The position numbers and the translations under genes are program-made. The notes beneath the pieces are model-generated. The model did not search any database. It saw nothing but the letters and a program-made list of their open reading frames with translations, and was not told the DNA's origin. From the IMG/VR virus record IMGVR_UViG_3300031364_000001, positions 1-64,000 of that record: a stretch of 64,000 nucleotides of DNA; one strand, written 5' to 3'. Shown piece after piece: positions 2,342 through 61,446 of the stretch; positions within the stretch are counted from its first letter, which is position 1; each line of letters begins with the position of its first letter. Origin of the DNA: a virus.

Positions 2342-3562
2342 TTATTTATTTTTTTGTAAATATTCATTTAATTTATCTTGCATAATTTCATTACTAATAA
2401 AAAAAACAGTACCGTCATGTCTATTATAAAACCATTTATTAAATTCTTTCATATAACTATCAAAAAATTTTTCATTCCATTTAAAATCTTCATAATCTGT
2501 TTTTTCATCTAACCATATTTCAAACTGATTCAAAAATCCATAAATATCTCTAATATAATCATTATAAATAGTATATAAACAACTTGTATCTTGTTCGGAA
2601 ATTGGGGTTAATTGATCTCTCGTATAACCATTTATTTTTTTATTTCTAATTTCCATATTAAAACTTGCTAATCTATTAACAAAACTTATAAGCTCGTCTG
2701 TTTCATCTATTCCTAAAATGTTGGCATAATCCCTAACATATAGAGGATATTTATTTTTTAGTTTGACAAGTAATTTAGGCGGTTTATTATAATAATGTAA
2801 AAAATTAGATGGTATATATTTATTTCTAGGGAAATGCAAAAAATGAGATAATATTTTTGGTATTTTATCTTTATTAGTATCATAATTATTATCAAAACAT
2901 AATAAAGATTGAATAAAAGCATCTTTAAATTTTTCTTCTGATTTAAATTCTTTAATATATTTTTCTATATATAAATTAGCATAACGTAAATTAGCTTCTT
3001 TCATAGAATCTTCTTTTTTATTAGATATATTATTTTTATCTAAAATAGAATGAAATATATTTATATATTTAATAGATATATTATTTTCTTTTATTTCTTT
3101 TTTAAATTGATTTTTAAAATAATTTGACTCTGTCATATTATTATTTTTATCTTTATTTATTATCTTATATTTATTATCTTTATAATCACTATTTAAATTT
3201 CCGTCATCGATCGGCGAATTTTCAGTTATCGAGTAAGTAATTTTACTTTGTCGTGAAGTTAGAAATTTAGAAGAAAAAGTATAATAATTAGTCCTATCCC
3301 ATTTATTTTTATCAAATTGTTTAGCAATAATTACATCTTTTTTTAATAAGTTATTTATAGCATATTTTATTTTTGACTCTGTTAAATAAGGAAAATATTT
3401 TAATAATTCTTCTGCTGTAAATTTTGTCCAATATTTATTTTCATATTTATTTTGTTCTTTAGCTTTATTTTTTTGCAACCAAAAATCAATAGTATTAATT
3501 ATTATTGCTTCCTCTATTCCATAAATAGTTGCAAATTCAACGTCAAAATGATGTTCACTCAT
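2342..3562 (-). CDS. Replisome organiser / replication initiation-like protein
   Basis: 406 aa. The N-terminal ~100 residues resemble phage replication-protein winged helices: a YWTKFTAEELLKYFP...ESKIKYAINNLLKKDVI helix-turn-helix-like stretch followed by WDRTNYYTF. A low-complexity Asn/Lys linker follows (~110-150), then a helical C-terminal region without a recognised motif. In comparable phages such a protein binds the origin and loads the helicase. Adjacency to the DnaB-like helicase supports this. The function is inferred. Confidence 0.6.
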   Translation of the reverse strand: MSEHHFDVEFATIYGIEEAIIINTIDFWLQKNKAKEQNKYENKYWTKFTAEELLKYFPYLTESKIKYAINNLLKKDVIIAKQFDKNKWDRTNYYTFSSKFLTSRQSKITYSITENSPIDDGNLNSDYKDNKYKIINKDKNNNMTESNYFKNQFKKEIKENNISIKYINIFHSILDKNNISNKKEDSMKEANLRYANLYIEKYIKEFKSEEKFKDAFIQSLLCFDNNYDTNKDKIPKILSHFLHFPRNKYIPSNFLHYYNKPPKLLVKLKNKYPLYVRDYANILGIDETDELISFVNRLASFNMEIRNKKINGYTRDQLTPISEQDTSCLYTIYNDYIRDIYGFLNQFEIWLDEKTDYEDFKWNEKFFDSYMKEFNKWFYNRHDGTVFFISNEIMQDKLNEYLQKNK

Positions 3563-3571
3563 ATTTATTCC

Positions 3572-4045
3572 TTATTTAAAAATTTTATTATGTTTTTTAA
3601 TAGAATCTTTATACCATTTTTTAATTTCAAAATCTTTATCTTTTTTTTCTGTTATTGTTTTTTCAAATTTATCTTCTGGAATATCTGCTATTTTTTGAAA
3701 CATACTACTTTCATTATGAGTTAAACCAATGTCTGAAAGTTTTTTAGAGGCTAACGAAGCATTAGTCTCTAAATTTTGATAACGATTCATTCCTTCATGT
3801 TTACCCGCTATCTCTCCATTTTGTTGACCTAATTTAATAAGTTGTCCTATTGTGCGTTGAGTTCTTATTTTTTGCTCAGCTACCATGTTTTGAAGTTCCG
3901 CATCTTTCTTTTCAGCTTTTACCCAAGTTTCAAGTGTTTTAACTTTATTCAGATAATTAATTCCAGTTTCTACACTTTTGATTTCTTCTAATTGCTTTTT
4001 TGCATTATCCCGTAAAACTAAACATTGTTCTTGTTCATTATTCAT
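3572..4045 (-). CDS. Phage protein of the IGQL/SSxFQxIADIP type, unknown function
   Basis: 157 aa, mostly helical. It carries TIGQLIKLGQQNGEIA in the middle and SSMFQKIADIPEDKFEKTI near the C terminus, a pattern common in phage and plasmid proteins encoded near replication or partition genes, without established biochemistry. SD GGAGG lies before ATG. It is the first gene after a 150-nt structured leader (4046-4203), so expression is probably controlled there. Confidence 0.55.
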   Translation of the reverse strand: MNNEQEQCLVLRDNAKKQLEEIKSVETGINYLNKVKTLETWVKAEKKDAELQNMVAEQKIRTQRTIGQLIKLGQQNGEIAGKHEGMNRYQNLETNASLASKKLSDIGLTHNESSMFQKIADIPEDKFEKTITEKKDKDFEIKKWYKDSIKKHNKIFK

Positions 4046-4197
4046 TTTCTTAACCTCCGTAAAATAAAAAGGACTATATTCCTATCAGTGACAATTTCAC
4101 TTATAACCCAACACAAACAATTATAAGTTACTTCTGACAGGAACATAGTCCCTAATATTTATGTGTTGTGATGTAAGGCTGTCAAACCTTTTAAAGT
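4046..4197 (-). promoter_or_regulatory. Structured 5' leader with pseudoknot-capable terminator hairpin
   Basis: On the minus strand a long hairpin forms between 4145-4151/4139-4143/4134-4137 and 4071-4077/4079-4083/4085-4088, one mismatch, with an inner stem 4121-4128/4099-4106. It is followed by TTTTTATTTT, as in an intrinsic terminator. The 14-nt apical loop contains TGTGTTG (4115-4109), complementary over 7 nt to CAACACA at 4168-4162 just upstream, so a pseudoknot is possible. The terminator sits between a promoter and the gene it would serve, so it is more likely an attenuator than an end-of-operon signal. Confidence 0.6.
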
Positions 4198-4226
4198 ATT
4201 ATAACTTATCCTTATATAAAAGTAAA
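4198..4226 (-). promoter_or_regulatory. Sigma70-like promoter for the 3572-4045 gene
   Basis: Minus strand: TTTACT at 4226-4221, 17-nt spacer, TATAAT at 4203-4198, inside the 3' end of the glycosylase gene. It would start an RNA near 4191 that begins with the structured leader. Confidence 0.5.
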
Positions 4227-4567
4227 CTATAATTTTTTAAAAGTTTTCTACATTCTGGACATCTATCAGATAAATCTTTAATATTATATTCTATATCTAT
4301 TTTAGCATTCAAATGTTCTTTTGGTAAATAACTAAGATCAGGCTGCTGATACGGAGATTGATGTTTATAACCACACTTTAACATTTCAATTACAAGTTCA
4401 TCATGGCTTTTTTTCATATTTTGCGGCTCAATTTGAACTATGGGATTTAACCGTCCATCTATATTATGATGTTTGAGAAAAATATGTCTATGTTTATGAA
4501 TTTCAGAATGACTTCTTAATAAATGTTTTCTACAAAGAAAGATTGGTGAAACTCCCCACATCCTCAT
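4199..4567 (-). CDS. Pyrimidine-dimer DNA glycosylase/AP lyase, endonuclease V-like
   Basis: Start set at ATG 4567 (MRMWGVSP), giving 122 aa; longer in-frame starts lie inside the HNH gene. The stop of the upstream gene overlaps as ATGA. The MRMWGVSPxxLCRKHLLRSHSEIHKH...HDELVIEMLKCGYKHQSP pattern matches the phage and bacterial T4-DenV-like family, which excises UV dimers. In T4 endonuclease V the N-terminal amine is the nucleophile, so the exact start matters. The C-terminal CPECRKLL gives a small possible zinc site. A second 5' fragment of the same gene lies at 5088-5186, on the far side of the HNH gene. Confidence 0.75.
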   Translation of the reverse strand: MRMWGVSPIFLCRKHLLRSHSEIHKHRHIFLKHHNIDGRLNPIVQIEPQNMKKSHDELVIEMLKCGYKHQSPYQQPDLSYLPKEHLNAKIDIEYNIKDLSDRCPECRKLLKNYSLLLYKDKL

Positions 4568-5049
4568 ATATGTTTCCATGATTGTCTTTTTAATATTTGT
4601 CTTATTTTTGTTTGACAAACATTATATTTTTTTGCTAATTTTCTTGTTGACCATATTTTTGGATTATAATTATCTCTTATCCATAAAACATCTTCTTTTT
4701 TCAGTTTAGATGATGGATTATCTTCTCCATATAAATGACCAGTAACCGTTCTGTTTTTTTTACCTCTATCTAAAATATTTTGTTTTTGTGTTCCTAACCA
4801 TAAATGATGTGGGTTTACACAAGAAGGATTATCACAACTATGACAGCAGATTAAATTTTTATCAATATGACCATTTTCAAAATAATAAGATGCTCTATGT
4901 GCTTTATATAATACGCTTTTTATACTATAAATTCCGTAACCATATACATCTTTTGTACCAATCCATTCCCAACAATCATTTTTTTCTTTTTTATTAACAT
5001 ATTTCCAAAATCTTTTTATTTGTTGCTCTGTTGGTTTATCTTTAAACAT
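4564..5049 (-). CDS. HNH homing endonuclease inserted at the glycosylase gene
   Basis: Start chosen at ATG 5049 (MFKDKPTEQQ) with SD AAGGAG, giving 161 aa; an in-frame ATG at 5088 lacks an SD. Motifs: CWEWIG...YGYG...AHRASYYFENG, then CHSCDNPSCVNPHHLWLGT, the zinc-coordinated HNH core. A C-terminal helix-turn-helix (STRKLAKKYNVCQTKIRQILK) is the DNA-binding part of such free-standing homing enzymes. It is flanked by two copies of the beginning of the glycosylase gene, so it looks like a mobile intruder that regenerated its target's 5' end. Confidence 0.85.
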   Translation of the reverse strand: MFKDKPTEQQIKRFWKYVNKKEKNDCWEWIGTKDVYGYGIYSIKSVLYKAHRASYYFENGHIDKNLICCHSCDNPSCVNPHHLWLGTQKQNILDRGKKNRTVTGHLYGEDNPSSKLKKEDVLWIRDNYNPKIWSTRKLAKKYNVCQTKIRQILKRQSWKHI

Positions 5050-5087
5050 TTTTAAATTCTCCTTATTAACATGAATGTTCATAAACA

Positions 5088-5186
5088 TTATAATAAATAA
5101 TGCTTTTTGTCAATAATTATTTCTCCATGTTCTCCTACTATATGTTTTATACACATAAATTTTGGGGATATCATCCACATTCGCAT
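5088..5186 (-). pseudogene. Truncated 5' fragment of the pyrimidine-dimer glycosylase gene
   Basis: 32 codons from ATG 5186 with a strong SD (AAAAGGAGTATAAT before ATG). The product begins MRMWMISPKFMCIKHIVGEHGEI and then diverges to a TAA. The beginning matches the start of the intact gene at 4567 (MRMWGVSPIFLCRKHLLRSHSEI), identity falling off near codon 23. This is the likely original gene start, cut off by the HNH insertion; the SD is better than that of the intact copy. Confidence 0.7.
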
Positions 5187-5280
5187 ATTATACTCCTTTT
5201 GAAATAAAAAAAGCGGATATACATAAATGTAATCCGCTTTGAATACCTTATGTAAGGTATTATTATTTTCCCTCTCAGAT
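5187..5280 (-). promoter_or_regulatory. Leader with double hairpin and terminator upstream of the glycosylase fragment
   Basis: On the minus strand: hairpin 1 AATACCTTACATAAGGTATT (5261-5242), then a terminator stem AAAGCGGAT/ATCCGCTTT (5240-5232 with 5218-5210) with an extra inner stem TACAT/ATGTA, followed by a T-run (5210-5204). It lies between the promoter at 5288 and the SD of the first ORF, so it would stop or regulate transcription into that ORF. Confidence 0.6.
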
Positions 5281-5287
5281 ATATTAT

Positions 5288-5306
5288 ATTATAATACTTT
5301 TTACTT
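5288..5306 (-). promoter_or_regulatory. Class A promoter motif
   Basis: Minus strand AAAAAGTATTATAATATA with -10 TATAAT at 5293-5288; it matches the class A consensus. The predicted RNA would start near 5281 and immediately contain the double-hairpin leader. Confidence 0.5.
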
Positions 5307-6279: not shown

Positions 6280-6307
6280 TCAAAGATCATCTTAACTTTC
6301 TATATTA

Positions 6308-10528: not shown

Positions 10529-10598
10529 GGGAGTTCAGATATAACGTTGTTTGTCTGATCTCCTTAATAAGCGAGGTTGAAACATACCTCGTTTTTAT
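10529..10598 (+). terminator. Double hairpin with intrinsic terminator
   Basis: Hairpin 1: GGAGTTCAGA/TCTGATCTCC (10530-10539 with 10554-10563, one mismatch). Hairpin 2: CGAGGT/ACCTCG (10572-10577 with 10586-10591), followed by TTTTTAT. It lies only 18 nt before the start of the next gene. It could end the 9233-10523 transcript or attenuate the gene at 10616. The same two-hairpin layout occurs at 5187, 36057 and 43550. Confidence 0.7.
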
Positions 10599-11440: not shown

Positions 11441-11459
11441 TATATTATGATTAATTATA

Positions 11460-11573
11460 ATAGTTGCTATGTGGCGGAATAGAGACGTTGTCGAAAAACA
11501 ATAATAGTAATTAGCTTGTTAAGAGATCAAGAATAAAAAATCTGTAAGAATCGAATCTTACCATAGCAACTAT
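11460..11573 (+). ncRNA. tRNA-like RNA element, copy b
   Basis: 114 nt closed by a perfect 12-bp inverted repeat, ATAGTTGCTATG (11460-11471) and CATAGCAACTAT (11562-11573). If TGCTATG/CATAGCA is read as an acceptor stem, GTGGCGGAATAGAGACG looks like a tRNA-Leu D-arm and GTAAGAATCGAATCTTAC (11544-11561) like a T-arm, although the T-loop is not standard and the D-loop lacks GG. A TTGT/ACAA stem lies in the anticodon-arm position. No ORF. Not a normal tRNA; a mimic or regulatory RNA is likely. Confidence 0.6.
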
Positions 11574-11624: not shown

Positions 11625-11951
11625 ATGAAGATAGGTGATAAAGTAATAATTAAACAATTATCAAGAAAAAAATTTTCAACAATGCAGAATAAATTATGGT
11701 TTTGTTCTTATGAAGATTATTTAGAACGTAGAAAAAAGTTTTTTAATAAAATTGGAAAAATAATTTATATTTCTAGATTAGAACCAAATTTTAAGGTTAA
11801 AGTAAAAAGAGTAAAAGAATGCAAACATTTTTATAAAAAAGAATTGGTATTATTAAAAAATAAAATTACAGAAAAACAATTAAAAAAATATGGGAAATAT
11901 GAGATTTATGTTTTTCAAAATAAGGAATGTTTTTTTATAAAAAAGATTTGA
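11625..11951 (+). CDS. Small basic protein with possible -1 frameshift extension
   Basis: 108 aa, SD AAGGGGG. The N-terminal part begins MKIGDKVIIKQLSRK, an SH3/KOW-like beta start. The C-terminal KKYGKYEIYVFQ matches the paralogue at 8004-8225. Just before the stop, the frame reads TTT TTT ATA AAA AAG ATT TGA, with the slippery heptamer A AAA AAG in the correct phase (and a T-run). A -1 shift would add DLIIQIE... up to a TAA at 12014-12016, restoring similarity to the paralogue. Either programmed frameshifting or a recent indel. Confidence 0.55.
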   Translation: MKIGDKVIIKQLSRKKFSTMQNKLWFCSYEDYLERRKKFFNKIGKIIYISRLEPNFKVKVKRVKECKHFYKKELVLLKNKITEKQLKKYGKYEIYVFQNKECFFIKKI

Positions 11952-13989: not shown

Positions 13990-14017
13990 ATAGAGTAGAT
14001 ATATATATCTACTCTAT
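13990..14017. terminator. Bidirectional terminator, perfect 28-nt palindrome
   Basis: ATAGAGTAGATATA and its exact reverse complement (13990-14003/14004-14017), with TTTAAAAAAAG after it on plus and A/T-rich DNA on the other side. It separates two convergent transcription units; the stop codon of the 14014 gene lies inside the stem. Confidence 0.8.
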
Positions 14018-29295: not shown

Positions 29296-29325
29296 AATAA
29301 AAGGCTCTTAACTTAATAAGAGCCT
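29296..29325 (-). terminator. Intrinsic terminator between structural genes
   Basis: Minus strand AGGCTCTTA/TAAGAGCCT (29325-29317 with 29310-29302), 6-nt loop, then TTTTATT. It would cut transcription after the 29335-29655 gene and reduce expression of the genes at 28922 and below relative to the upstream genes. Confidence 0.75.
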
Positions 29326-32233: not shown

Positions 32234-32266
32234 AATAGCGGATAAATAAATTATTACCCGCTTATT
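32234..32266 (-). terminator. Intrinsic terminator after the major capsid gene
   Basis: Minus strand AGCGG(G)...CCGCT with inner TAAT..ATTA pairing (32262-32258 with 32241-32237), then ATTAAATAAAAAA... T-poor but AT-rich. It lies just past the capsid stop at 32279, so capsid mRNA is probably made in excess of downstream genes. Confidence 0.55.
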
Positions 32267-32278
32267 ATTTATTTTAAA

Positions 32279-33259
32279 TTAAATTCCATAAGAATATGAA
32301 ATTGAGAGTGGGAAGTACACGATAATTCCTCCAATTCTTGCTTCGGTCATTATATCAAATCCCAATCCTTTTATTTGAGGTGGTAATTGAGTATACATCA
32401 TAGGAATTTCTAATGTTAATGAATCTGGATTTTTAGAATACATTATCATTTTTGCTGTTGCGCCTACGCCTGCTGTATTTAACTCTGTTAACCACTCAAT
32501 AGTTTTAATCATTGGGAAGTTATCCTTAATATAAGATAATACTGTTTTAGAATCACCATCAGTTACACGTCTTGTTGCTATATCCATATATTGTGAATGA
32601 GGCAATAGCAATGTATCAGGCTCTTCTATACCGTTAGTAGTATCTGTTATTGCTAATAACATTCCTTTTACATCTTTGATTATTTCGTCTGGAGTTTTTG
32701 TTACCCATGTTTGACTTCCTGCTGCTCCATTTGGTACTACATACTGAGTAGTACCTGGATAATCAATAAAACCATCAATGCTATGAGCTGCATCCCCTGA
32801 AAGTGCTATACTATTAACTTTTTCTTCATATCCTCTTTTTGCTGTATTTGCTTTTCTAACTTCTAAATTTTTACCTGACATTCTTGATCTTCTAATTTCT
32901 TGTCTTGAATAACCAAAAGAATCAGAAACAGTATAAACTTTTGATGAAAATTCCTCCCCGTATATATCAACTCTAGGAGAATTCTGAGCATAGTCAGAAA
33001 CTATTGCTGCAGTACCCACTTGTGTATATCTTCTATAAGTAATTGTTTCTGCACCTGGATCAGCTTCAGAACTTATAGGAAACAAAGTGGCATATTTTAA
33101 TGTTCTTTGTTTTGTATCATAACTTTTAGCTTTAATATATTCCAACTCTCTTACAAAAAATGCGGATTCACCAGCATCTTGTAATATACCAGAATTATTA
33201 ACTCTATCAAAAGTCATTTTATCGACTTCTATTCCATCTATAATTATTTTATCACTCAT
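32279..33259 (-). CDS. Major capsid protein (DUF2184/encapsulin-like)
   Basis: 326 aa, SD AAGGAGG. RELEYIKAKSYDTKQRTLKYATLFPISSEADPGAETITYRRYTQVGTAAIVSDYAQN...GYSRQEIRRSRMSGKNLEVRKANTAKRGYEEKVNSIALSGD then PMIKTIEWLTEL and EIPMMYTQLPPQIKGLGFDIMTEARIGGIIVYFPLSI: the DUF2184 HK97-fold capsid pattern. Encoded downstream of the decoration and scaffold genes. Confidence 0.9.
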   Translation of the reverse strand: MSDKIIIDGIEVDKMTFDRVNNSGILQDAGESAFFVRELEYIKAKSYDTKQRTLKYATLFPISSEADPGAETITYRRYTQVGTAAIVSDYAQNSPRVDIYGEEFSSKVYTVSDSFGYSRQEIRRSRMSGKNLEVRKANTAKRGYEEKVNSIALSGDAAHSIDGFIDYPGTTQYVVPNGAAGSQTWVTKTPDEIIKDVKGMLLAITDTTNGIEEPDTLLLPHSQYMDIATRRVTDGDSKTVLSYIKDNFPMIKTIEWLTELNTAGVGATAKMIMYSKNPDSLTLEIPMMYTQLPPQIKGLGFDIMTEARIGGIIVYFPLSISYSYGI

Positions 33260-34065: not shown

Positions 34066-34677
34066 TTATTTTACCTCCTCATCTAAAATTTTTTTCATAT
34101 CTTCATCAATTATACCTTCACGATATTTTTTTCCTTGTTCTGAATCAAGTTTCCAAGCGTTCTTTATACGTCTATTTCTTAATTCATCTGCATCAACTTT
34201 ATCTGTTTTAGAAGGTTGAATATTTAATATTTTTTCTTTATTATCTGCAACTACACTTTTATTTAAAGTGATTATTGCCGCATCAAATACAGAACTAATA
34301 TAATTTTCATCTTTATCTTCTAAATTCATATCTGCGTATGCTTTTTTAATAACTTCTTTTTTAATTTCTAAATTATTCATATCTTCTTTGATTTCAAGTC
34401 CGAATTTTACTGCCGTATCTACAATAGTAATTCTATCTTTTACAGCGTTGTCAATTTTTATAGGAATTTCTTTTTCAAGTTTTTCTTTGTCTTCTTTTAG
34501 TTTTGCATTATCAGCAACCAAAGAATCATATTTGCCTTGAAGTGTAGATAATTCTTGATTTTTTGATTTCAATGATTTATCCAAATCTTCATTTGTCTTT
34601 TTGATAATATTAAATTCGTCTTCAACTCTTTTGTCTACTTCAAATTCAACATTATCATTCAATCTAATTTTTGCCAT
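34066..34677 (-). CDS. Nested scaffold protein from an internal start
   Basis: In the same frame as the fused gene, ATG 34677 (MAKIRLNDNVEFEVDKRVED) is preceded by a strong SD (AAAAAGGAG, 8 nt). 203 aa, acidic coiled coil, typical scaffold. This mirrors the nested scaffold of phage lambda (Nu3 inside C). The internal SD is better than that of many whole genes here, which supports real use. Confidence 0.6.
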   Translation of the reverse strand: MAKIRLNDNVEFEVDKRVEDEFNIIKKTNEDLDKSLKSKNQELSTLQGKYDSLVADNAKLKEDKEKLEKEIPIKIDNAVKDRITIVDTAVKFGLEIKEDMNNLEIKKEVIKKAYADMNLEDKDENYISSVFDAAIITLNKSVVADNKEKILNIQPSKTDKVDADELRNRRIKNAWKLDSEQGKKYREGIIDEDMKKILDEEVK

Positions 34678-35841
34678 TGTTTTATTCTCCTTTTTAGGCT
34701 GAGTGTTATTGTCCCCGACTACATCGGAATTTATATAAACAGCATCATTGCTATCCATTCTTAATTTAAGTTTTGCTAAATCTCCTGCTCTACCCCTATC
34801 AACTATTGCTATATGATTATATTTTATATTTTTTTGAACTGCATCATATTGATTATTACCATAAGCAAAACCTGATCGCATTTCAAGATCAGCAGCATAA
34901 CCGCAACTTAATGCAATTTTGCCTTCTTTCTCAATTTTCTCTATTGTCTTTCCATCTGTAATAGTAATTGGAATAGAAGTTGTCATGCCATCAAATCTTA
35001 CATTCTCCCCTGTAAAACCTACCTGTAATTCTTTAGCATTATCTGCATTTACAGAACCATTTGGAGCAATATCTCCTTTTGGATGATTATCTGTCATTAC
35101 TTGCATTATAAGACTATCTAAAGTTTCTTGATTCCCTATATCTTCTGGAGTTCTTAATTCTCTTAATATAGAACCATCTGATTGGATGTAATTAAAAATA
35201 CCTGTATTAGTTACTATTGCTCTACCTTTAAGATATCCTTCTGGAGTTTTTCTAAAAGGCTCTACCATATTGTCTTCTGTTAATTCAAATACATCAAATC
35301 TATTAACAGAATCTATTTTATCAACTTTATTTTTTATAATAGCTTCATGTTCCCAATTAGAATCAATTTTTATAAAATCTTTACTCCATTTACCTTCTTT
35401 ATTTTTTTTATATCCTGCTTCTTTTACTGCATTCCAAGCAATGGAAGCAGCTTTAATTTTATTTTCTTTATTTTCCGGATCATTAGGATGTTCTTTTACC
35501 CATTGTTTTCTAATATTTGCGTATGTATGTATTAATATTGTGACTGCTTCTTTTGGCATATTGGCAGGATAAGGAGGAGGGATAAACCCTATTACTTTTT
35601 TTTCTGAATCATAAATTATATCAGATTCATCTTTTTTATTTTTACAAACATCTTCATGTTCTTTTTCTAATTCTTCTACTATATCTTTTATACTATCATC
35701 TATATCTTCTGGGAATTTACCTTTACCAATTGCTATTGCTTGTTTAATTGCTTCTTTTTTTGCATTCTTACCAATAAAGCATTTACCATTTCCCCAAGAC
35801 CATCCCTCTTGACCATTTTCTGTACATTTTTTAATAGGCAT
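34066..35841 (-). CDS. Fused prohead protease (DUF2213-like) and scaffold
   Basis: 591 aa. Order: a short cysteine-containing start (MPIKKCTENGQEGWSWGNGKCFIG...), a ChaB-like unit (PPYPANMPKEAVTILIHTYANIRKQWVKEHP..., ~80-145), a DUF2213 protease-like domain (~180-365, ending RSGFAYGNNQYDAVQKNIKYNHIAIVDRGRAG), and a scaffold-like C-terminal coiled coil (~390-591). It is the known head-assembly layout in one chain. An internal start at 34677 can give the scaffold alone, see next entry. An active-site set for the protease is not assigned. Confidence 0.75.
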   Translation of the reverse strand: MPIKKCTENGQEGWSWGNGKCFIGKNAKKEAIKQAIAIGKGKFPEDIDDSIKDIVEELEKEHEDVCKNKKDESDIIYDSEKKVIGFIPPPYPANMPKEAVTILIHTYANIRKQWVKEHPNDPENKENKIKAASIAWNAVKEAGYKKNKEGKWSKDFIKIDSNWEHEAIIKNKVDKIDSVNRFDVFELTEDNMVEPFRKTPEGYLKGRAIVTNTGIFNYIQSDGSILRELRTPEDIGNQETLDSLIMQVMTDNHPKGDIAPNGSVNADNAKELQVGFTGENVRFDGMTTSIPITITDGKTIEKIEKEGKIALSCGYAADLEMRSGFAYGNNQYDAVQKNIKYNHIAIVDRGRAGDLAKLKLRMDSNDAVYINSDVVGDNNTQPKKENKTMAKIRLNDNVEFEVDKRVEDEFNIIKKTNEDLDKSLKSKNQELSTLQGKYDSLVADNAKLKEDKEKLEKEIPIKIDNAVKDRITIVDTAVKFGLEIKEDMNNLEIKKEVIKKAYADMNLEDKDENYISSVFDAAIITLNKSVVADNKEKILNIQPSKTDKVDADELRNRRIKNAWKLDSEQGKKYREGIIDEDMKKILDEEVK

Positions 35842-36056: not shown

Positions 36057-36222
36057 TTTTCTACTTCCTTAAATAAATAAAAAAGCCGGCATCAAACCTA
36101 CAATTTTTTATGTAGATTCAATGTCGGCTCAATTAATTATGAAACACCTGACATCATTATTAACAATCTTATTTGTTGTTAATAATTTTTAAAAAATATA
36201 TATTAAAAGGAGCTTATTATTT
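36057..36222 (-). promoter_or_regulatory. Leader with double hairpin and terminator
   Basis: Minus strand, 5' to 3': perfect 11-bp hairpin ATTATTAACAA/TTGTTAATAAT (36186-36176 with 36166-36156); spacer; then AGCCGACAT/ATGCCGGCT (36129-36121 with 36092-36084, one mismatch) with an inner CTACA/TGTAG, followed by TTTTTT. This lies between the promoter at 36223-36252 and the gene at 35844-36056. Attenuator or antitermination site likely. Confidence 0.6.
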
Positions 36223-36252
36223 ATTATAATATATATTTTAAAATAAATAAAG
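36223..36252 (-). promoter_or_regulatory. Class B promoter
   Basis: Minus strand TACTTTAT...TATAAT: CTTTAT at 36252-36247, 18-nt spacer, TATAAT at 36228-36223. Same spacing as at 43615 and 47873. Confidence 0.65.
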
Positions 36253-36259
36253 TAAAATA

Positions 36260-40554: not shown

Positions 40555-40569
40555 TTTTTTAACTCCTTA

Positions 40570-42058: not shown

Positions 42059-43525
42059 TTATTGCATTTTTAACTCTTCCATTTGTCTTTTTAATTCTTC
42101 ATTTTCCATTTGCATTTCTGATTCCCTATTTAATAAATCAATAGTAGTATCATAAGAATAAGAATCTCCACCGAAACGAGCTTCTGCAACTTCATCAGGA
42201 GTTAATACACCAGTATTAATATATATTTGATCTTGTTCTGCCTGTAATTTTTTACATTCCAATTCTTCTTTTTGAGTTAATTGAAATAACGAATTATAAA
42301 TTATATTAGGTTCTTGTATTTTATTTTTTAATGCTATATTAACATAATTTATTAATTTCATTAAATTTTTAGACATCAAATTTTCTTGATAACTTTTTAC
42401 ACTATCATAGTAATTTTTTAAATCACCTTCACCTGTAGCATTTTCTCCTGCTGCTGATCTTCCAAATAACTTAGTTACAGCATAATCATAAACGCCGGCT
42501 ACCATCATCATATACCTATCTAATAAATCAGATAATCCTGATACATTAGCAGAATCCCTTTGATAATCATCCTGAGAATCTAATAGAACGCCTTGAATTG
42601 TGCTTTTTGCTAATTCTATAATACCTAATATTTCGTCTACTTGTTGTTTTTTCCCTTCTGAAATTAAAGTTTGTAAACCATCTATTTTATATTTTCCAAT
42701 AATAAACTCATAAAGTATTTTTACTATATGATTAAAACTAGCACATAAATTTTTTAATTCATTCCAACCATGTTGTAATTCAGACATCCCCCAAAAATAG
42801 AAATTGCCTGATTCTATTCTTTTTGGTACTGGTATTCCTTTCCAAATTAAACATCTTGAAACATGAGCATTAAAAGGGGTTCCATAAGGTGGTTGGATTG
42901 TTATATATTCTAGCTCCCCAAAATTAGCAGAGCCTTTATCTTTATTATAATGAAATTCTGTAATTGAACAATCTGTTCTATCATAAGTTTCTAGCCAGTC
43001 TATACTTTTTATTTTATTTATATTTACTTCTTCTTCTAATTTTCCACCATCATTTATTCCTAATACATTTATACCACCGCCAAAATGACTCCTCCATTTT
43101 AAACCTAAATTAATATGATATTTTGTATCAATATTTTTCATATAATTTATAATATCATTATCAGGATCATTTTCTATTCTAATCCATTGCCTTGTCATAT
43201 CATCACAACGTACTGCTGTAATTTTATGAGCAAAACCTCCAGAAACCCATAATTCTGATAGCATTTGATCGTCTAGTATTTCATAACCTGAAAAAGTGGT
43301 ATATCTGGATTTATCAAATCTTTGGCCTAGTCCAGTCATTATATTAGACCAGTTATCTGCTCGATTGCTTTTATTTTCTGGTTTTGGATTTTCTCTAAAA
43401 GGAGTTAAATTTATAATATCTTTTTTTTCTATTGCTTTTATAACTTTTGTTGCATCATTTTTTAATTGGTTATATTTTTTCATATCCTGAGGAATGTTAG
43501 AATCAAACTTTTTATATATCGGCAT
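42059..43525 (-). CDS. Portal protein (DUF1073-like)
   Basis: 488 aa, SD GGAG. GLQTLISEGKKQQVDEILGIIELAKSTIQGVLLDSQDDYQRDSANVSGLSDLLDRYMMMVAGVYDYAVTKLFGRSAAGENATGEGDLKNYYDSVKSYQEN is the DUF1073 portal motif. Forms the dodecamer at the head vertex. A second start in the leader is unlikely. Confidence 0.9.
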   Translation of the reverse strand: MPIYKKFDSNIPQDMKKYNQLKNDATKVIKAIEKKDIINLTPFRENPKPENKSNRADNWSNIMTGLGQRFDKSRYTTFSGYEILDDQMLSELWVSGGFAHKITAVRCDDMTRQWIRIENDPDNDIINYMKNIDTKYHINLGLKWRSHFGGGINVLGINDGGKLEEEVNINKIKSIDWLETYDRTDCSITEFHYNKDKGSANFGELEYITIQPPYGTPFNAHVSRCLIWKGIPVPKRIESGNFYFWGMSELQHGWNELKNLCASFNHIVKILYEFIIGKYKIDGLQTLISEGKKQQVDEILGIIELAKSTIQGVLLDSQDDYQRDSANVSGLSDLLDRYMMMVAGVYDYAVTKLFGRSAAGENATGEGDLKNYYDSVKSYQENLMSKNLMKLINYVNIALKNKIQEPNIIYNSLFQLTQKEELECKKLQAEQDQIYINTGVLTPDEVAEARFGGDSYSYDTTIDLLNRESEMQMENEELKRQMEELKMQ

Positions 43526-43608
43526 TTGTACTCCAAAATAAATTATCTAAATAAAATCCCGAATACCGAAATATTCGGGGATATATCCATATAGGATATA
43601 CGATAATA
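43526..43608 (-). promoter_or_regulatory. Leader with double hairpin and terminator before the portal gene
   Basis: Minus strand: hairpin 1 TATATCC/GGATATA (43600-43594 with 43588-43582); hairpin 2 CCCGAATA/TATTCGGG (43579-43572 with 43565-43558) followed by ATTTTATTT, an intrinsic-terminator form. Everything sits within 60 nt of the class B promoter and 30 nt before the SD of the portal gene. Confidence 0.65.
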
Positions 43609-43614
43609 TTCATT

Positions 43615-43648
43615 ATTATAATAAATTTTTATAAAAAAATAAAGTAAA
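43615..43648 (-). promoter_or_regulatory. Class B promoter for the portal operon
   Basis: Minus strand CTTTAT at 43644-43639, 18-nt spacer, TATAAT at 43620-43615; upstream bases TTTACTTTATTT shared with 36223 and 47873. Confidence 0.65.
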
Positions 43649-43655
43649 ATTATTT

Positions 43656-44424: not shown

Positions 44425-46878
44425 TTACCACGCCCATCTACTCATATCTACATGAGGTTTATCAAATTTCTGTCTACATAAACTGGAAAAATTATCTGCA
44501 CAATCATCTGGCTCTTGTCCTTCCTGATAATCTAAAATTTGACTAATATATTCAGGATCGGTATCTATATCCCAGTCTATATTTTTCCAATGTTTATATC
44601 CATAAGTTTCTATTTTAATACCTTTATTCATACTTTCATGATATGTCTCTACTTTTACACCTTTTTTCGCTAACTCTTTTGCTAAATAACCTTTATCGGC
44701 ATTATCTTCTAAATATAGAGTACCACAAAAATATTTTTTCCATTTCTCATATACAAAATCTAATTTATCGTCTATATGTTCGTGAAAGCAAAATCCTATT
44801 GCTTGAATCCTGCCATCTTTTTTCTTAGCCATAAAACATAAACCATTTGTATGATTACCTGAATACTTTGCATCTAAATGTCCATATACTCCAACCTTAA
44901 TAAACACATCCCATTTTGCCCAACTTGCCTCTTGAAACATTTGACTATCTGATGCTATATGTCTTAATTCATGATTAGCTGCATAACTTACTGGCGTTAA
45001 TTCTCTTTTTTTTTCTTCTTTTTCTTTTTCTGTTAATATATCTAACATATTAATATCAAATTTTAAAGTAGATGGACATATTATCCATGCATCTTCTCTA
45101 TGCCAAGGCGTTCCAGATAATCCAATTTGTTTCCCTGGATCTAAAATATTATTCATTATATCTTCTAATCTTAATTTAGTTTTTTCTCTCTCTGCTTTTG
45201 ATACCTTATCATCCAAAGTTACAAAATCATCAGCTTGTATAAAATCAAAGTGCTTACCTGTCATATCTTGTATAACCCCATAAGCATTTATATTGCCTTC
45301 TGGGGTATAAGTTTTTTTAAAATTAAATGTTAATATATTATCTCTTTTTGTAACCGGTTTAGGATAAAATCCATGTGCTATTTTAAATAATTCTTGTACT
45401 TCCGGTACTAACATTGCCTGTCTAATAGTTTGTAATAGTAAGCTAGCCTTTGTAAAGTTTTTTTGTACTAAACAAATTCTAATATTAGGTTCAAATAATA
45501 ATCTCTCTATTGACCCTATCGGAGATAAAGCGGTTGTATTGTGTGTTACTGTCAATTCATTCCCAACTAAATAAAGGCCATCTTCACTATTTACTTTTAT
45601 ACAATTTGTTGGTATAGTGAGGGTTTTATCTACAGATATAATATATTTATCTTTAAATGTTCGAGAACCATCTAAACATTTATCTAATTTTCTTTTTAAT
45701 CTAAAAGGTTTATCTTTTTTATAAGCCCTAAATGCTACATTATAATATGTATAATCTCTTCCCAACGATTTATAAAAATATGTGTATTTATTAAATCTAG
45801 GGGCTAATCCCAAACTATAAGATAAACGTAAAACATCTTTTGCTAATTTTTCATATTTTGTATTAAATATAGCATTTCCACCTTTATTACAAGACCCATC
45901 TGTATCCATTAATCCTTGTAATAATAAAGAACGTTGATCGATACTTGATATATGATATAATTCAGGAATATGTTTATTTTTAAGTAAATTCAATTTATGT
46001 AATTCTGTTGTTAAATTTTTTATTCTATATGTAGCAACATTTTTATTTCTTTTATCATAAAACATAGAACTAACCACATTTCCATCTTTTTCTATATCTT
46101 GTATAATTTGGTAATCTTCCCTATGTCCAGTAAGCCTCCCTCCTTCGGAATGCCCGTCACCTAACCATACACCTAATAAATAAGGATTTATAGGTAAATC
46201 TTTATTAGAAAATTCTACAGCTTTATTTAATTTAACAGATAATCTATTATCTGGCTTATGAATATGTCCACTAAGTTCTTTAGTAGATGTAATTATATAT
46301 TTTCTTTTTCTAGTTCTTATTTCTTTTCCATTTTCCTTTCTTGATGTCCATTTTAATACACCAACTTCCCATAAATGCCCTTCACCACATATAATACTAT
46401 GACTATCACTAAAAACAATATTATAACAATTATTATAAAATATTTCAGAAACACCAACTATTTCTATAGGCTTACCAGTAGGAGAAAAAACTTTATCTCC
46501 AACTTTTAAATCACCATGTTTTTTAAATCCAGTGGTCGTTAATACAGGCTCATTAATATCTATATCTTTATAACTTCCACGATGAGCTTGTAATGATCTT
46601 TTTGGATTTTTTAATAATTCTAATAATATTTCTTCTGTTAAATAATGTCTTTCTAGTTTATTCCTATCATTTTTTATTTCATAACATTTACCTAAACTAT
46701 TAAAAAAGTTTAGCATATCTTTTAGATTTTCATTATCATTTTTAGTAAAGTATTCTACCGGATACCATAAATATTTTATCCAATAACTATGAATTTTAGT
46801 TAATTTATTTTTATTTATTAATCTTCCCAACTTATGAGGATTGTCTATTATATCTTTTAATATTTCTTCATTTGTCAT
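44425..46878 (-). CDS. terL: Terminase large subunit interrupted by an intein
   Basis: 817 aa precursor; mature extein about 474 aa. N-extein ends AHRGSYK (104), C-extein begins TTALSPIG (448): the intein lies inside the Walker A motif (HRGSYKTT). C-extein has Walker B FDFIQADDFVTL near 560 and a nuclease-like end (YLEDNADKGYLAKELAKKG). Packages DNA with the small subunit at 46978. The upstream start lacks a good SD. The unspliced product would have a broken P-loop, so splicing is needed for packaging. Confidence 0.9.
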   Translation of the reverse strand: MTNEEILKDIIDNPHKLGRLINKNKLTKIHSYWIKYLWYPVEYFTKNDNENLKDMLNFFNSLGKCYEIKNDRNKLERHYLTEEILLELLKNPKRSLQAHRGSYKDIDINEPVLTTTGFKKHGDLKVGDKVFSPTGKPIEIVGVSEIFYNNCYNIVFSDSHSIICGEGHLWEVGVLKWTSRKENGKEIRTRKRKYIITSTKELSGHIHKPDNRLSVKLNKAVEFSNKDLPINPYLLGVWLGDGHSEGGRLTGHREDYQIIQDIEKDGNVVSSMFYDKRNKNVATYRIKNLTTELHKLNLLKNKHIPELYHISSIDQRSLLLQGLMDTDGSCNKGGNAIFNTKYEKLAKDVLRLSYSLGLAPRFNKYTYFYKSLGRDYTYYNVAFRAYKKDKPFRLKRKLDKCLDGSRTFKDKYIISVDKTLTIPTNCIKVNSEDGLYLVGNELTVTHNTTALSPIGSIERLLFEPNIRICLVQKNFTKASLLLQTIRQAMLVPEVQELFKIAHGFYPKPVTKRDNILTFNFKKTYTPEGNINAYGVIQDMTGKHFDFIQADDFVTLDDKVSKAEREKTKLRLEDIMNNILDPGKQIGLSGTPWHREDAWIICPSTLKFDINMLDILTEKEKEEKKRELTPVSYAANHELRHIASDSQMFQEASWAKWDVFIKVGVYGHLDAKYSGNHTNGLCFMAKKKDGRIQAIGFCFHEHIDDKLDFVYEKWKKYFCGTLYLEDNADKGYLAKELAKKGVKVETYHESMNKGIKIETYGYKHWKNIDWDIDTDPEYISQILDYQEGQEPDDCADNFSSLCRQKFDKPHVDMSRWAW
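45538..46566 (-). mobile_element. Intein with LAGLIDADG endonuclease in the terminase P-loop
   Basis: Residues 105-447 (343 aa) of the precursor. Block A-like start DIDINEPVLTTTGFKKHGDLKVGDKVF; B-block with HLWEV; LAGLIDADG blocks LLGVWLGDG and LLLQGLMDTDG; F/G-block NCIKVNSEDGLYLVGNELTVTHN followed by Thr. First residue appears to be Asp, not Cys/Ser; a Trp (HLW), a Cys at the F-block (NCIKV) and Thr before HN are present, the WCT set of class 3 inteins. Confidence 0.8.
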
Positions 46879-47872: not shown

Positions 47873-47902
47873 ATTATATTATTTTTATTTAAAAAAATAA
47901 AG
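47873..47902 (-). promoter_or_regulatory. Class B promoter for the terminase-portal late region
   Basis: Minus strand CTTTAT at 47902-47897, 18-nt spacer, TATAAT at 47878-47873. Follows the terminator at 47916-47943. Confidence 0.65.
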
Positions 47903-47915
47903 TACTTTCTTAAAT

Positions 47916-47943
47916 AAAAAGACAGAGCTTTTATACTCTGTCT
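47916..47943 (-). terminator. Intrinsic terminator
   Basis: Minus strand AGACAGAG/CTCTGTCT (47943-47936 with 47927-47920), 8-nt loop, then TTTTTATTT. Ends the recombination/replication operon after the 47953 gene and insulates the terminase promoter. Confidence 0.85.
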
Positions 47944-56770: not shown

Positions 56771-58597
56771 TTAATTTCTAAAAACTGAAAATAATTGCAT
56801 TATTAATACTGGCATGTCATAAATTGGATTCTGCAATGCTTCTATTATCATTGCTGATTTTATATCCGGTTTATCTAACAACACCTTCCCAAAATAACTT
56901 ATTACTACTTTCCTAATTGATTCGGGATTTTGATTTTGTAATTGTTTTAAAATATTACTTACTTCATTCCAACTATTTGATTTTAATAATAACCTACATA
57001 AATCTATTATAGTTTTATCTTCTTCAATACCTTTTCCAATTATTTCTAACTGTTTGCTTTCATCTTTAAATTGCAAAACAACTTCTAATAATGATAAACT
57101 ATCTCTAATATGACCATCAACAGCATCACATATATTTCGTGCCACTGTCTTACTAATTTCATTATTTTCTTTTATTGAAATATCTATTAAATATGGGTAA
57201 AGATATCTATTACTTATTTTCTCAAAAATTAACCTTTTACTACGTGAAATTATTGTTTTTACAATTTTGGATTCTTCAGTTGTAGTGAAAAAAAAGTAAG
57301 TATTTTTTGGAGGTTTTTGAAGGCAAGTCAAAAAGCCTTCCTGACTTAAAGTTGGCAATTGATGAGCTTCCTCTATTATATAACTTTTTGGATTATTATC
57401 TAAAGTTCTATATTGACAATTATCTATTATTTTTCTTATATTATCAATCCCCCTATCTGTTATACAATCTAATACTTGTATATTATCTTGACAGTTTAAT
57501 TGTTTTGATATTAATTTTGCAGTTAATGACTTTCCACAATTTCCAGTAATAAAAATTCTAAAATTTCTACGTAAAATTAAATATGATGACGATACAGTAA
57601 AGCAATATTCAAAACCATCTTTTGTATTATATTCTAATATTTTTACATTTTTTGTAATACCCACAAAAGAATTATTAGAAATAATTAATATATAATTTAT
57701 ATTTTTATTCCTTTTATCTTGCCTAACTGTAGTTCGATAACCACAAACAGCATAAGCATATTGTAAAAAATCTATATCTTCTTTATTATTAGAAGAAAAT
57801 TTTTTACCATTAAATTCAAAATCCCAATATTTTAACTCATCTAAAATAATATCTAATTGTATTTTAGAACATTTAAAATATTTTTTATCAAAGATTTTAG
57901 TTCTAAAAAACGGCACAAAAAAGAAAGCTGTATAACCATTATATTTTTTTTCATATTTTCTATATTTTAATCCTGATTGTTTTAATAATAATTCAGCTCT
58001 TTCTATTTTTCTTTTCTTTTTTAAATTTATACAAACTTGCTGCCCTCTTTTTATAAAATATCCATCAACATTAACCATAACTTGTATTCTTAATAAGATA
58101 TCTGATATTTCTAATTTACTTTTAATTTGATAATCAAAAGTTGTTTGAAATTTTCCAGTAAAACCCATAACTAATGATTCATGTTTATTTTTTATATTTT
58201 CAAATAAAGAAGTTTCATATCTTTGTGTTTTTTTATTTTTATATAAAACATTATGATTTAATGATAAACATTGATCTACTCCATATTTAGATTTTATATA
58301 AAATAATTTATTTTGTTTATTTTTAATATAATTTAAAGGATAAACTAATTCAGCTTCTTTTTTTTGTAAATTATATTGCATTACCAAATCTGCTTTATCA
58401 TATTCAGATATCTTTTTCCATTCAAAACCATTAAAAAATTCAGTATCACAATCTACACAACCTCTATCTCCTACAAATAAATAAGATTGCGGGATTTCTT
58501 TTTGATTTAAAAAACCATTTAAAATAATTTTATTATTCTCATTTGCTAAAAGGTCATTTAAATTATTAGGTTCGTATTTGTTAAATAATGAACTCAA
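56771..58597 (-). CDS. Clamp loader subunit (DnaX-like) interrupted by an intein
   Basis: 608 aa precursor, TTG start with SD AAAGGAG; extein 301 aa. N-extein MSSLFNKYEPNNLNDLLANE...LFVGDRG; C-extein CGKSLTAKL...IIEEAHQLPTLSQEGFLTCLQKPPKNTYFFFTTTEESKIVKTIISRSK (Walker B-like EEAH, sensor-1 FFFTTT, SRS arginine finger). The intein sits in the P-loop GDRG-CGKS. Loads the clamp at 63080. Confidence 0.85.
   Translation of the reverse strand: MSSLFNKYEPNNLNDLLANENNKIILNGFLNQKEIPQSYLFVGDRGCVDCDTEFFNGFEWKKISEYDKADLVMQYNLQKKEAELVYPLNYIKNKQNKLFYIKSKYGVDQCLSLNHNVLYKNKKTQRYETSLFENIKNKHESLVMGFTGKFQTTFDYQIKSKLEISDILLRIQVMVNVDGYFIKRGQQVCINLKKKRKIERAELLLKQSGLKYRKYEKKYNGYTAFFFVPFFRTKIFDKKYFKCSKIQLDIILDELKYWDFEFNGKKFSSNNKEDIDFLQYAYAVCGYRTTVRQDKRNKNINYILIISNNSFVGITKNVKILEYNTKDGFEYCFTVSSSYLILRRNFRIFITGNCGKSLTAKLISKQLNCQDNIQVLDCITDRGIDNIRKIIDNCQYRTLDNNPKSYIIEEAHQLPTLSQEGFLTCLQKPPKNTYFFFTTTEESKIVKTIISRSKRLIFEKISNRYLYPYLIDISIKENNEISKTVARNICDAVDGHIRDSLSLLEVVLQFKDESKQLEIIGKGIEEDKTIIDLCRLLLKSNSWNEVSNILKQLQNQNPESIRKVVISYFGKVLLDKPDIKSAMIIEALQNPIYDMPVLIMQLFSVFRN
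57539..58459 (-). mobile_element. Intein in the clamp-loader P-loop
   Basis: Residues 47-353 (307 aa). Starts CVDCDTEFFNGFEWKKISEYD, ends CFTVSSSYLILRRNFRIFITGN followed by Cys+1; penultimate residue is Gly, not His. A degenerate LAGLIDADG pair (ILLRIQVMVNVDGYF; YAYAVCGYRT) suggests a decayed endonuclease. Cys1 and Asn/Cys+1 are in place, so splicing may still work. Confidence 0.8.
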
Positions 58598-58950: not shown

Positions 58951-61446
58951 TTATAAATCCTCCTCTTTAATTTCGTCTGCCCAATTCTTTCCATAATAAG
59001 TAACTTTTGCATTTAATGGAATTATTATCCATTCAAAATTTTTCCTAATTTCATTTAACATTATATTTTTTATATAAAGTAATAATTCTTCCCATTCACT
59101 TTCACAAACATCAAACACTATACAATCATATATTTGATTTATAATTTTAGTTTTATAATTATTTTCTTTTAAATATTTATTTATTTTACATAAACTCCAT
59201 AACAATAAATGAAACGCTTGTCCTTGAAATGCCAAATTATTAACTTGATTCCTTCTCATATATCCCGTTGCTCTAAATCCTGTTTTAAATTCTATATATC
59301 CATTTTCTAAATAAAAATTATAATTAGCTTTTTTCCATTCATTGTATTCTTTAAATCTTTCATTCCAAAATATATATTCTACCTGTTTAATATGGTTTTC
59401 AAATTCTTGTTTACTACTTATAAAAGAATATAATATTTTTTTCTGATCTTCTGTACAATATTCCCAAATATTATTAGCACAATTAACGTAATAATCTCCG
59501 TAAAATTGAGGAAATACAAATTTATTTTTTGCAATATATCGTAAATCTTTTGTTACTTTTTCTTTATCTATATAAAAAATATCTGCTGCTGTATCTCTGT
59601 GCATATCCGTATCTTCATCATTTATATAATTAATTAAATTACTATCTTTTGTCATACAAGCTGCTACCATAACTTCAATACCTGAGTAATCGATTTCTAC
59701 TAAATAATCATTTTTAGCAATTATAGTTTCCCTTATCATATCTTTTGCAACTTCATTTCTTTTCGGGATATTTGCCATATTAGGAAATGAAGTGGATGGA
59801 CGATAACTTGAAACTGTATGTAAATTAAAAATAGGATATAAAAAATCATTTATTTCTTCCCTATCAAATTGGCTTAAATAAGTATCTCTCATTTTTGTTA
59901 ATGATCTTTTTTCTAATATATTATTAGTTAATCTTTTATCGTATAATTTTAAACTATTAGCATCAACGCTTTGTAAACCTGTTTTTGTTTCTCCTTTTAT
60001 TTCCCATTTACAAATATCAAATAATAATACTCTTAATTGTTTACTACTATCGTAATTAAAATTATCTTCCTTCCATAATTTTACTTCTTTACTATTCATT
60101 ATTTCATTATGCAATAAATTTATTTTATCAGTTAAAATATTATAATTTTTTTGATATGCTTCTTTATCAAATTTTATTCCATTTAAATGAACATCAAATA
60201 AATTCCTTAATCCTTCCATAAAAAATTCAAAACCTTTTTTTAAATGAATGTCATTATCTAATTTTTGTTTTTGCTTTTCATATAGTAAATATGTAAAATA
60301 ACTATCTAATGCACAATAATATAATAATTGTTCTTGATTAGCTTTTTCTATATTATTATAATTACTACTTGATTTTAAAAATTTACTTATACTATCATCA
60401 TATCCTTTTATTCCGAAATTTAAATATGTTTGTCTTTTTAATCCAGTTATTCCTTGCCTATTATCTAATATATGAGAACAAATCATCGTGTCCCAATACC
60501 AATTTTTTATATCACATTTAAAAATATTTTTAGTCCAGGAATTTTCAAAATTAGCATTCTGACATATTTTATATATTTTTTCATTTTCAAATATCTGTTT
60601 TAATTCTAATATTATTTCTTCATCATTATTTATCATAAATGCATAACTTTTTCTATTTATACAAATTGATATACAAACTATTTTACTATTTTTATATTGA
60701 GGCCTTAATGAATTTGTTTCATAATCAAAAGTTATTATATCATTATCTTTTATATATTGTAAAAATTCAATTATTCTATTTTTATTTCTTATAATACAGA
60801 TATTATTTTTATAATCTAATATTTTAAATTTTCTATTATCATTAATAGCATTATATAAATTATCTCTAAATATTTTTTGTAAAATAACTTCTTTTTCATT
60901 ATGCAAAATATAACTAGGAGAATAAATAGGATAAATAAAGCATTTATATTCTTGATCTGGAATATTAAAACCTATCCATTGTTCATATGTAGTTACTGAC
61001 TCTTTATGCCCGATTAAACTTTCTAATGCTATTTTACCAAAAGTTATTATTTTTTTAGGTAATAAAATTTCTATCTCTCTTAATAAATTACCTTTACATA
61101 ATTTAATATCTGAATTTGTAGGAATACCCTTACTTTTACATCTTATTGCAGGAATAATATAACAATCTTCAAATAAATTTATATCTAGTTCTTTTAAAGT
61201 TTCTTGTAAATATTTACCCGCTTTATTATTTAAAAACCCTTGTTCATCTTCTTCTTTTGTTATAAACTCTGTAATTATTAGTATTTGTTTTTTGCCTTTA
61301 CCTTTTGGTTTTATTTTTGGAGATAAACAAGTTTTATATTTTTGACATTTTTCACAAAGTTCTTCTTGTGTATATTCCTTTTTTGTTTTTTCTTTTGATT
61401 TTATTTCATTACCAAATAGATCAGTTTGAAAAAATGGTTTATTCAT
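58951..61446 (-). CDS. Uracil-DNA glycosylase (family 4) fused to PolA-type DNA polymerase
   Basis: 831 aa. N-terminal QTDLF (residues 7-11) matches a beta-clamp-binding motif. Family-4 UDG-like domain ~28-205: Cys31, 34, 40, 103 and 117 as FeS ligands candidates, EEDEQGFLNNKAG and YSPSYI. 3'-5' exonuclease ~235-400 (TFDYETNS; LDSYFTYLLYE). Polymerase ~420-831: motif A EIDYSGIEVMVA, motif B RDLRYIAKNKFVFPQFYG-type, motif C QIYDCIVFDV (the usual HDE is YDC, Asp kept). Note the GEAPG loop of UDG is not conserved (TEFIT), so glycosylase activity is unproven. Confidence 0.8.
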   Translation of the reverse strand: MNKPFFQTDLFGNEIKSKEKTKKEYTQEELCEKCQKYKTCLSPKIKPKGKGKKQILIITEFITKEEDEQGFLNNKAGKYLQETLKELDINLFEDCYIIPAIRCKSKGIPTNSDIKLCKGNLLREIEILLPKKIITFGKIALESLIGHKESVTTYEQWIGFNIPDQEYKCFIYPIYSPSYILHNEKEVILQKIFRDNLYNAINDNRKFKILDYKNNICIIRNKNRIIEFLQYIKDNDIITFDYETNSLRPQYKNSKIVCISICINRKSYAFMINNDEEIILELKQIFENEKIYKICQNANFENSWTKNIFKCDIKNWYWDTMICSHILDNRQGITGLKRQTYLNFGIKGYDDSISKFLKSSSNYNNIEKANQEQLLYYCALDSYFTYLLYEKQKQKLDNDIHLKKGFEFFMEGLRNLFDVHLNGIKFDKEAYQKNYNILTDKINLLHNEIMNSKEVKLWKEDNFNYDSSKQLRVLLFDICKWEIKGETKTGLQSVDANSLKLYDKRLTNNILEKRSLTKMRDTYLSQFDREEINDFLYPIFNLHTVSSYRPSTSFPNMANIPKRNEVAKDMIRETIIAKNDYLVEIDYSGIEVMVAACMTKDSNLINYINDEDTDMHRDTAADIFYIDKEKVTKDLRYIAKNKFVFPQFYGDYYVNCANNIWEYCTEDQKKILYSFISSKQEFENHIKQVEYIFWNERFKEYNEWKKANYNFYLENGYIEFKTGFRATGYMRRNQVNNLAFQGQAFHLLLWSLCKINKYLKENNYKTKIINQIYDCIVFDVCESEWEELLLYIKNIMLNEIRKNFEWIIIPLNAKVTYYGKNWADEIKEEDL

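Follow-up and report, generated by a model that had tools for sequence, protein, structure and literature searches.

How often do transcripts of this uncultured bacterial virus start at a promoter that is followed by a transcription stop signal before the first gene, and what could such an order mean? An earlier note on the same DNA had read four minus-strand leaders in this way (43526-43650 at the portal gene, 36057-36252, 5187-5306 and 4046-4226), most of them with a second hairpin 5' of the terminator, as at a plus-strand site (10529-10598), and had proposed a coordinated control layer of attenuation or of RNA-based antitermination as in HK022 put. Our analysis indicates that a stop signal, which polymerase must pass to reach structural genes, directly follows one late-gene promoter at least and a second one probably.

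The stretch analysed, in the following called the window, comprises positions 1-64000 of a virus record of 65,006 bases and is very AT-rich (24.7% G+C). It encodes a replication module (DNA-polymerase-A, helicase, primase and clamp-loader genes) as well as terminase, portal and capsid genes. Its closest relative, IMGVR_UViG_3300031552_000005 (G001), is about 98% identical across large parts, and two contigs from one metagenome, L003 and L038, are 85% identical to the window in the portal and 84% in the capsid, respectively. Faecalibacterium phage FP_Brigit was too distant for a comparison of leaders (capsid 37.5-40%). A scan of genome contigs with the capsid protein yielded no relatives, a second portal scan with alignment zero further ones, and a search with gene 2342-3562 none. 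Residues of about 53-551 of the terminase large subunit (44425-46878) match primase/helicase families, coliphage terminases or DnaB, as would be expected from a shared intein. The clamp loader (56771-58597), possibly also with an intein, matches a LAGLIDADG-like domain and a PhoH-like family, and DNA polymerase A (58951-61446) carries a uracil-DNA-glycosylase domain at its N-terminus.

Promoter classes and intrinsic terminators in the window

A generic sigma-70 consensus scan of the portal and 36-kb surroundings gave 69 promoters where 82 +/- 9 were expected; because there is no excess over shuffles, the "readable promoters" of the earlier note could not be accepted there on the sigma-70 consensus. 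In the 1-12 kb region the same scan was above shuffles. Analysis of repeats yielded three classes of phage promoter that exceed chance by far. Class A (AAAAAAnTATTATAATATAGT) occurs in nine intergenic copies with 23-32 bits (threshold 18.6; mean maximum of shuffled genomes 10.8). Class B consists of an TACTTTATTT box at fixed spacing to TATAAT (22 nt from the end of TACT), with minus-strand copies at 47904, 43646 and 36254, the latter two scoring 27-28 bits versus a shuffle maximum of 22; it was also found in G001 and at the L003 portal. Class C combines TTGACT and TATAAT at sigma-70 spacing and has two copies (minus 6336, plus 9183). Class B heads the portal and 36-kb leaders and class A the 5.2-kb leader, which makes three of the four promoters in question credible (class B at 43646-43615 and 36254-36223, class A at 5306-5281), while the one at 4226-4198 does not rise above the null. 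For AT-rich phages, repeat analysis can hence recover promoters that consensus scans miss.

Strict single-hairpin terminators number 8 in the intergenic gaps of the window, compared to 0.9 +/- 0.8 in dinucleotide shuffles, and all five sites are more stably folded than shuffled sequence (leader MFE z of -2.2 at the portal, -5.2 at 36 kb, -3.6 at 5.2 kb, -5.0 at 4.1 kb and -4.1 at 10.5 kb). Terminator-like hairpins are indeed present at every place named by the earlier note, the portal one failing the strict criterion, and a further hairpin lies 5' of the terminator at the portal, 36 kb, 5.2 kb and plus 10529. Among the 14 intergenic promoters of classes A, B and C, three are followed by a terminator in the leader (minus 5281, minus 36223 and, weakly, minus 43615). 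Most others have no leader or leaders of roughly 10-30 nt without hairpins; exceptions are 6303 (minus), with a 145-nt structured leader, and 11443 (plus), with a tRNA-like RNA downstream. The ordinary order, terminator then promoter, is found at 47.9 kb:

47873-47904, minus strand: class B promoter from the promoter-class scan, with a short leader and without a downstream terminator (contrast case)
47920-47943, minus strand: terminator 5' of this promoter (strict terminator scan)

Since only three of 14 promoters show it, the promoter-then-terminator order is a trait of particular operons and not a genome-wide layer. The coordinated control layer is therefore not borne out, given also the L003 portal, which has no terminator, and neither is the comparison with put (see below), whereas the order promoter, terminator, gene itself is supported. 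Of the underlying observations, the terminator-like hairpins and three promoters are confirmed; the promoter at 4226-4198 is not, nor does the portal hairpin pass as a strict terminator.

The individual leaders

The leader at 36057-36252, upstream of the late structural operon, is the best case of the order. Its elements and those of the operon are:

36223-36254, minus strand: class B (late) promoter with TACTTTATTT box and TATAAT (27.4 bits, shuffle maximum 22.4; identical in G001)
36199-36225, minus strand: promoter-proximal 5' box AATAAATAATAAGCTCCTTTTAATATA (identical in L038 except for a 2-nt insertion)
36156-36186, minus strand: AT-rich hairpin 1 of the leader (predicted fold; L038 has a 4-bp hairpin instead)
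36084-36129, minus strand: intrinsic terminator that separates the late promoter from the first gene, with a T-rich tract behind it (-24.2 kcal/mol, tail score 4.48)
14014-36056, minus strand: late structural operon of ~22 kb (34066-35841, capsid 32279-33259, tail genes)
32237-32262, minus strand: hairpin right after the capsid gene, without a U-tract on this strand (retained in L038 with compensatory changes)
29302-29325, minus strand: terminator-like hairpin within the operon (-12.9 kcal/mol; retained in L038 at 6407)

The terminator at 36084-36129 is the strongest of the eight strict ones. The minus strand from 36083 to the 3' end of the operon at 14014 showed no promoter of class A, B or C, and capsid transcripts from recognised promoters must therefore cross this terminator.

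Promoter class, terminator and their order can be read from the sequence, as can their retention in L038, the one diverged relative that informs on this leader. L038 starts within the late-operon leader and retains the first ~27 nt past the -10 region (apart from the 2-nt insertion) and the U-tract, while the leader beyond the 5' box cannot be aligned to the window. Its counterpart of the terminator, located at 77-117, has compensatory pairs and the same U-tract TTTTTTATTT; stem stability is nearly equal (-22.5 kcal/mol in L038, -22.9 in the window) despite largely different sequence. A structural alignment of the stems, begun at the base, gives about 14 corresponding pairs, of which roughly six are changed on both sides and none is broken, a count made by hand from the pair lists that assumes homologous stems. 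The leader folds are also similar (z -4.9 in L038, -5.2 in the window), but hairpin 1 has no recognisable counterpart. In this relative, position and structure of the terminator are thus kept, which agrees with the order proposed for 36 kb. A search of viral contigs for the 5' box gave true matches only in G001 and L038, the other eight looking like chance. That the box (CUCCUU) pairs with the Shine-Dalgarno sequence ahead of the first gene was considered and discarded, the pairing being no better than for shuffled 5' elements. As regards leader-peptide attenuation, inspection by eye showed a 6-codon ATG frame without Shine-Dalgarno in the leader, the sequence of which is absent from L038. L038 additionally carries the same ~57-bp segment of a hairpin plus Shine-Dalgarno sequence twice, after the capsid gene (3914-3970) and in a second gap (11752-11808); its hairpin is not present in the window or in G001.

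The second class B leader precedes the portal gene:

42059-43525, minus strand: portal protein gene (phrog_146, E 1.3e-86)
43615-43646, minus strand: class B promoter 5' of the portal gene (28.5 bits; conserved in L003 and G001)
43583-43599, minus strand: portal-leader hairpin 1 (one C-to-U change in G001, pairing kept)
43558-43579, minus strand: terminator-like hairpin with interrupted T-tract (conserved in G001, absent from L003)

The tail of the terminator-like hairpin (ATTTTATTT) is interrupted, it fails in the strict scan, and L003 keeps the class B promoter but lacks the terminator. This terminator is probably weak and the leader a weaker version of the 36-kb layout.

The remaining sites lie near the start of the window:

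5281-5306, minus strand: class A promoter of the 5.2-kb leader (22.8 bits, shuffle maximum 18.3)
5242-5261, minus strand: hairpin 1 of the 5.2-kb leader (predicted fold)
5211-5239, minus strand: intrinsic terminator of the 5.2-kb leader (-13.2 kcal/mol, tail 4.06)
4198-4226, minus strand: promoter-like candidate sequence (consensus 10/12; 13.4 bits as class B, null median 13.8)
4071-4152, minus strand: long, branched hairpin resembling a terminator, ahead of gene 3572-4045 (-35 kcal/mol; leader z -5.0)
10529-10563, plus strand: hairpin 1 of an intercistronic pair (predicted fold, leader z)
10571-10592, plus strand: intercistronic terminator (strict terminator scan)

At 5.2 kb, as at the portal, the order promoter, terminator, gene is supported by the sequence itself, with the reservation given above for the portal terminator. 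At 4046-4226 the hairpin is very strong and the promoter is unproven; upstream of the relatives of gene 3572-4045 in L004-L006 nothing similar to the hairpin was seen by eye. Both the 4.1-kb and the 5.2-kb leader are described from the window only. The hairpin pair at plus 10529-10598 has no recognised class A, B or C promoter. An HNH endonuclease gene (4199-5185) is flanked by a fuller copy of a pyrimidine-dimer glycosylase gene and by a short fragment that looks like the beginning of such a gene.

Readings of the promoter-terminator order

In lambda, late transcription starts at pR', meets the terminator tR' and proceeds to the late genes under the antiterminator Q. The late-gene arrangement described here resembles lambda pR'-tR' or Pseudomonas alpB-tB (AlpA) in sequence layout: an intrinsic terminator between the promoter and the first gene of the operon is found at 36 kb, and as in lambda a long operon would be reached by passing a promoter-proximal terminator downstream of a late promoter. 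In both systems, polymerase passes with the help of an antiterminator that is loaded at the promoter (PMC7969949). In AlpA of Pseudomonas aeruginosa, which has no sequence similarity to Q, tB starts 54 nt from the start site, and the terminator of the second target 26 nt from it (PMC7969949). Unlike in lambda, no Q-like protein was recognised, the promoter class is phage-specific, and a Q binding element or pause is putative at most. The element used by AlpA is found between -35 and -10; the class B box, in contrast, is located further upstream of -10 and is also present at promoters without a terminator; a relative of AlpA was not recognised either. Terminators within a long operon driven by one upstream promoter are also known from the conjugation operons of pLS20, where conAn processive antitermination overcomes operon-internal terminators (PMC8955417), but counterparts of ConAn1 or conAn2 were not recognised here.

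We consider the chances about even that the late leader acts as a promoter-proximal gate, at which polymerase halts unless it is allowed through, i.e. that control is regulated. Transcription of the late structural operon would begin at the phage-specific class B promoter, the strong intrinsic terminator about 90-135 nt downstream would stop polymerase, and read-through would be regulated by a phage factor or the promoter-proximal box and not simply be partial. That the promoter fires, the hairpin terminates and read-through is regulated we infer from the above-shuffle promoter motifs and terminators and from the 5' box, U-tract and terminator retained in L038; the conserved hairpin at 29302-29325 inside the operon fits a requirement for read-through. 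Against a gate count the class B box shared by promoters with and without terminator, the L003 portal without terminator, and the single diverged relative for the late leader. PHROGs and Pfam scans of part of the proteome recognised no sigma or anti-sigma protein and, as the earlier note had stated, no antiterminator, nor was an RNA polymerase seen among the scanned proteins. In DNA this AT-rich, a host-type promoter may also lie 3' of the late terminator. A more specific version, rather unlikely in our estimate, is an undescribed phage-encoded processive antitermination acting on class B late promoters and passing both the gate and the conserved intra-operon hairpin, with an unrecognised protein or the box AAGCTCCTTTTAATATA, as RNA or DNA, as its agent. 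If gating is true, an uncultured AT-rich phage lineage joins those that control late genes by termination and not by initiation alone, and a short leader of about 140 nt, in which a promoter-proximal box is conserved, offers a route to a new antiterminator.

Constitutively leaky terminators, which would end upstream middle-gene transcripts and pass a fixed fraction of polymerases, tuning dose without a dedicated antiterminator, are conceivable though somewhat unlikely. They would account for the terminators in gaps without a recognised promoter (29302-29325, 10571-10592), for the absence of a recognised antiterminator and for the class A promoters upstream at 40567 and 44381 that are directed into the terminator site; however, a terminator as strong as that of the late operon, with its long U-tract, would be costly ahead of capsid genes, and insulation needs no reversed order, because the same phage has terminator then promoter at 47.9 kb. 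That the hairpins are 5' stability or processing elements of late mRNAs we regard as distinctly unlikely: the U-tract-less, conserved hairpin after the capsid gene and the poor U-tract at the portal would fit, but the 36-kb U-tract is retained in L038 despite a mostly altered stem. Production of a 50-150 nt small non-coding RNA, with downstream genes served by read-through, is very unlikely. Promoter, structured RNA and terminator are the anatomy of such a unit, the class A promoter at 11443 precedes a tRNA-like RNA instead of a short leader, and the 4.1-kb unit is highly structured; yet the region between 5' box and terminator is not conserved between the window and L038, and the Rfam matches to the 36-kb leader and to 4000-5306 were weak and at chance level. 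In the entire window, Rfam 15 had zero matches at the gathering threshold, including the known leader families (riboswitches, EAR, JUMPstart). Cis-acting antitermination like that of HK022 put, in which two adjacent hairpins modify polymerase, is extremely improbable. In put, a pair of stem-loops of about 70 nt precedes the terminators that are defeated (PMC9378689). Like put, the portal, 36-kb and 5.2-kb leaders have adjacent hairpins close to the 5' end of the transcript, but the second hairpin here is the terminator itself, and with one hairpin preceding each terminator the comparison fails on the defining anatomy; the one at 36 kb is, moreover, not recognisably kept in L038.

Further structured RNAs

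RNAs resembling tRNAs are located at plus 11463-11570, minus 54909-54774 and minus 5511 (5' end only), and in G001 at minus 46071-45949. They share constant ends (GTTGCTATGTGGC... and ...AATCGAATCTTACCATAGCARC), whereas the interiors, of about 60-90 nt, are unrelated. ARAGORN detected no tRNA anywhere in the window, and the sites scanned with Rfam gave no match to tRNA. At minus 6232-6178, a below-threshold Rfam match to the type-P1 twister ribozyme (32 bits, cut-off 67.2; E 0.0002 for a search of 2.4 kb) sits in the structured leader behind the host-type promoter at 6303. The gene starts at minus 6158, plus 9657 and minus about 5862 share a common start context, AGGTCAGCRATG.
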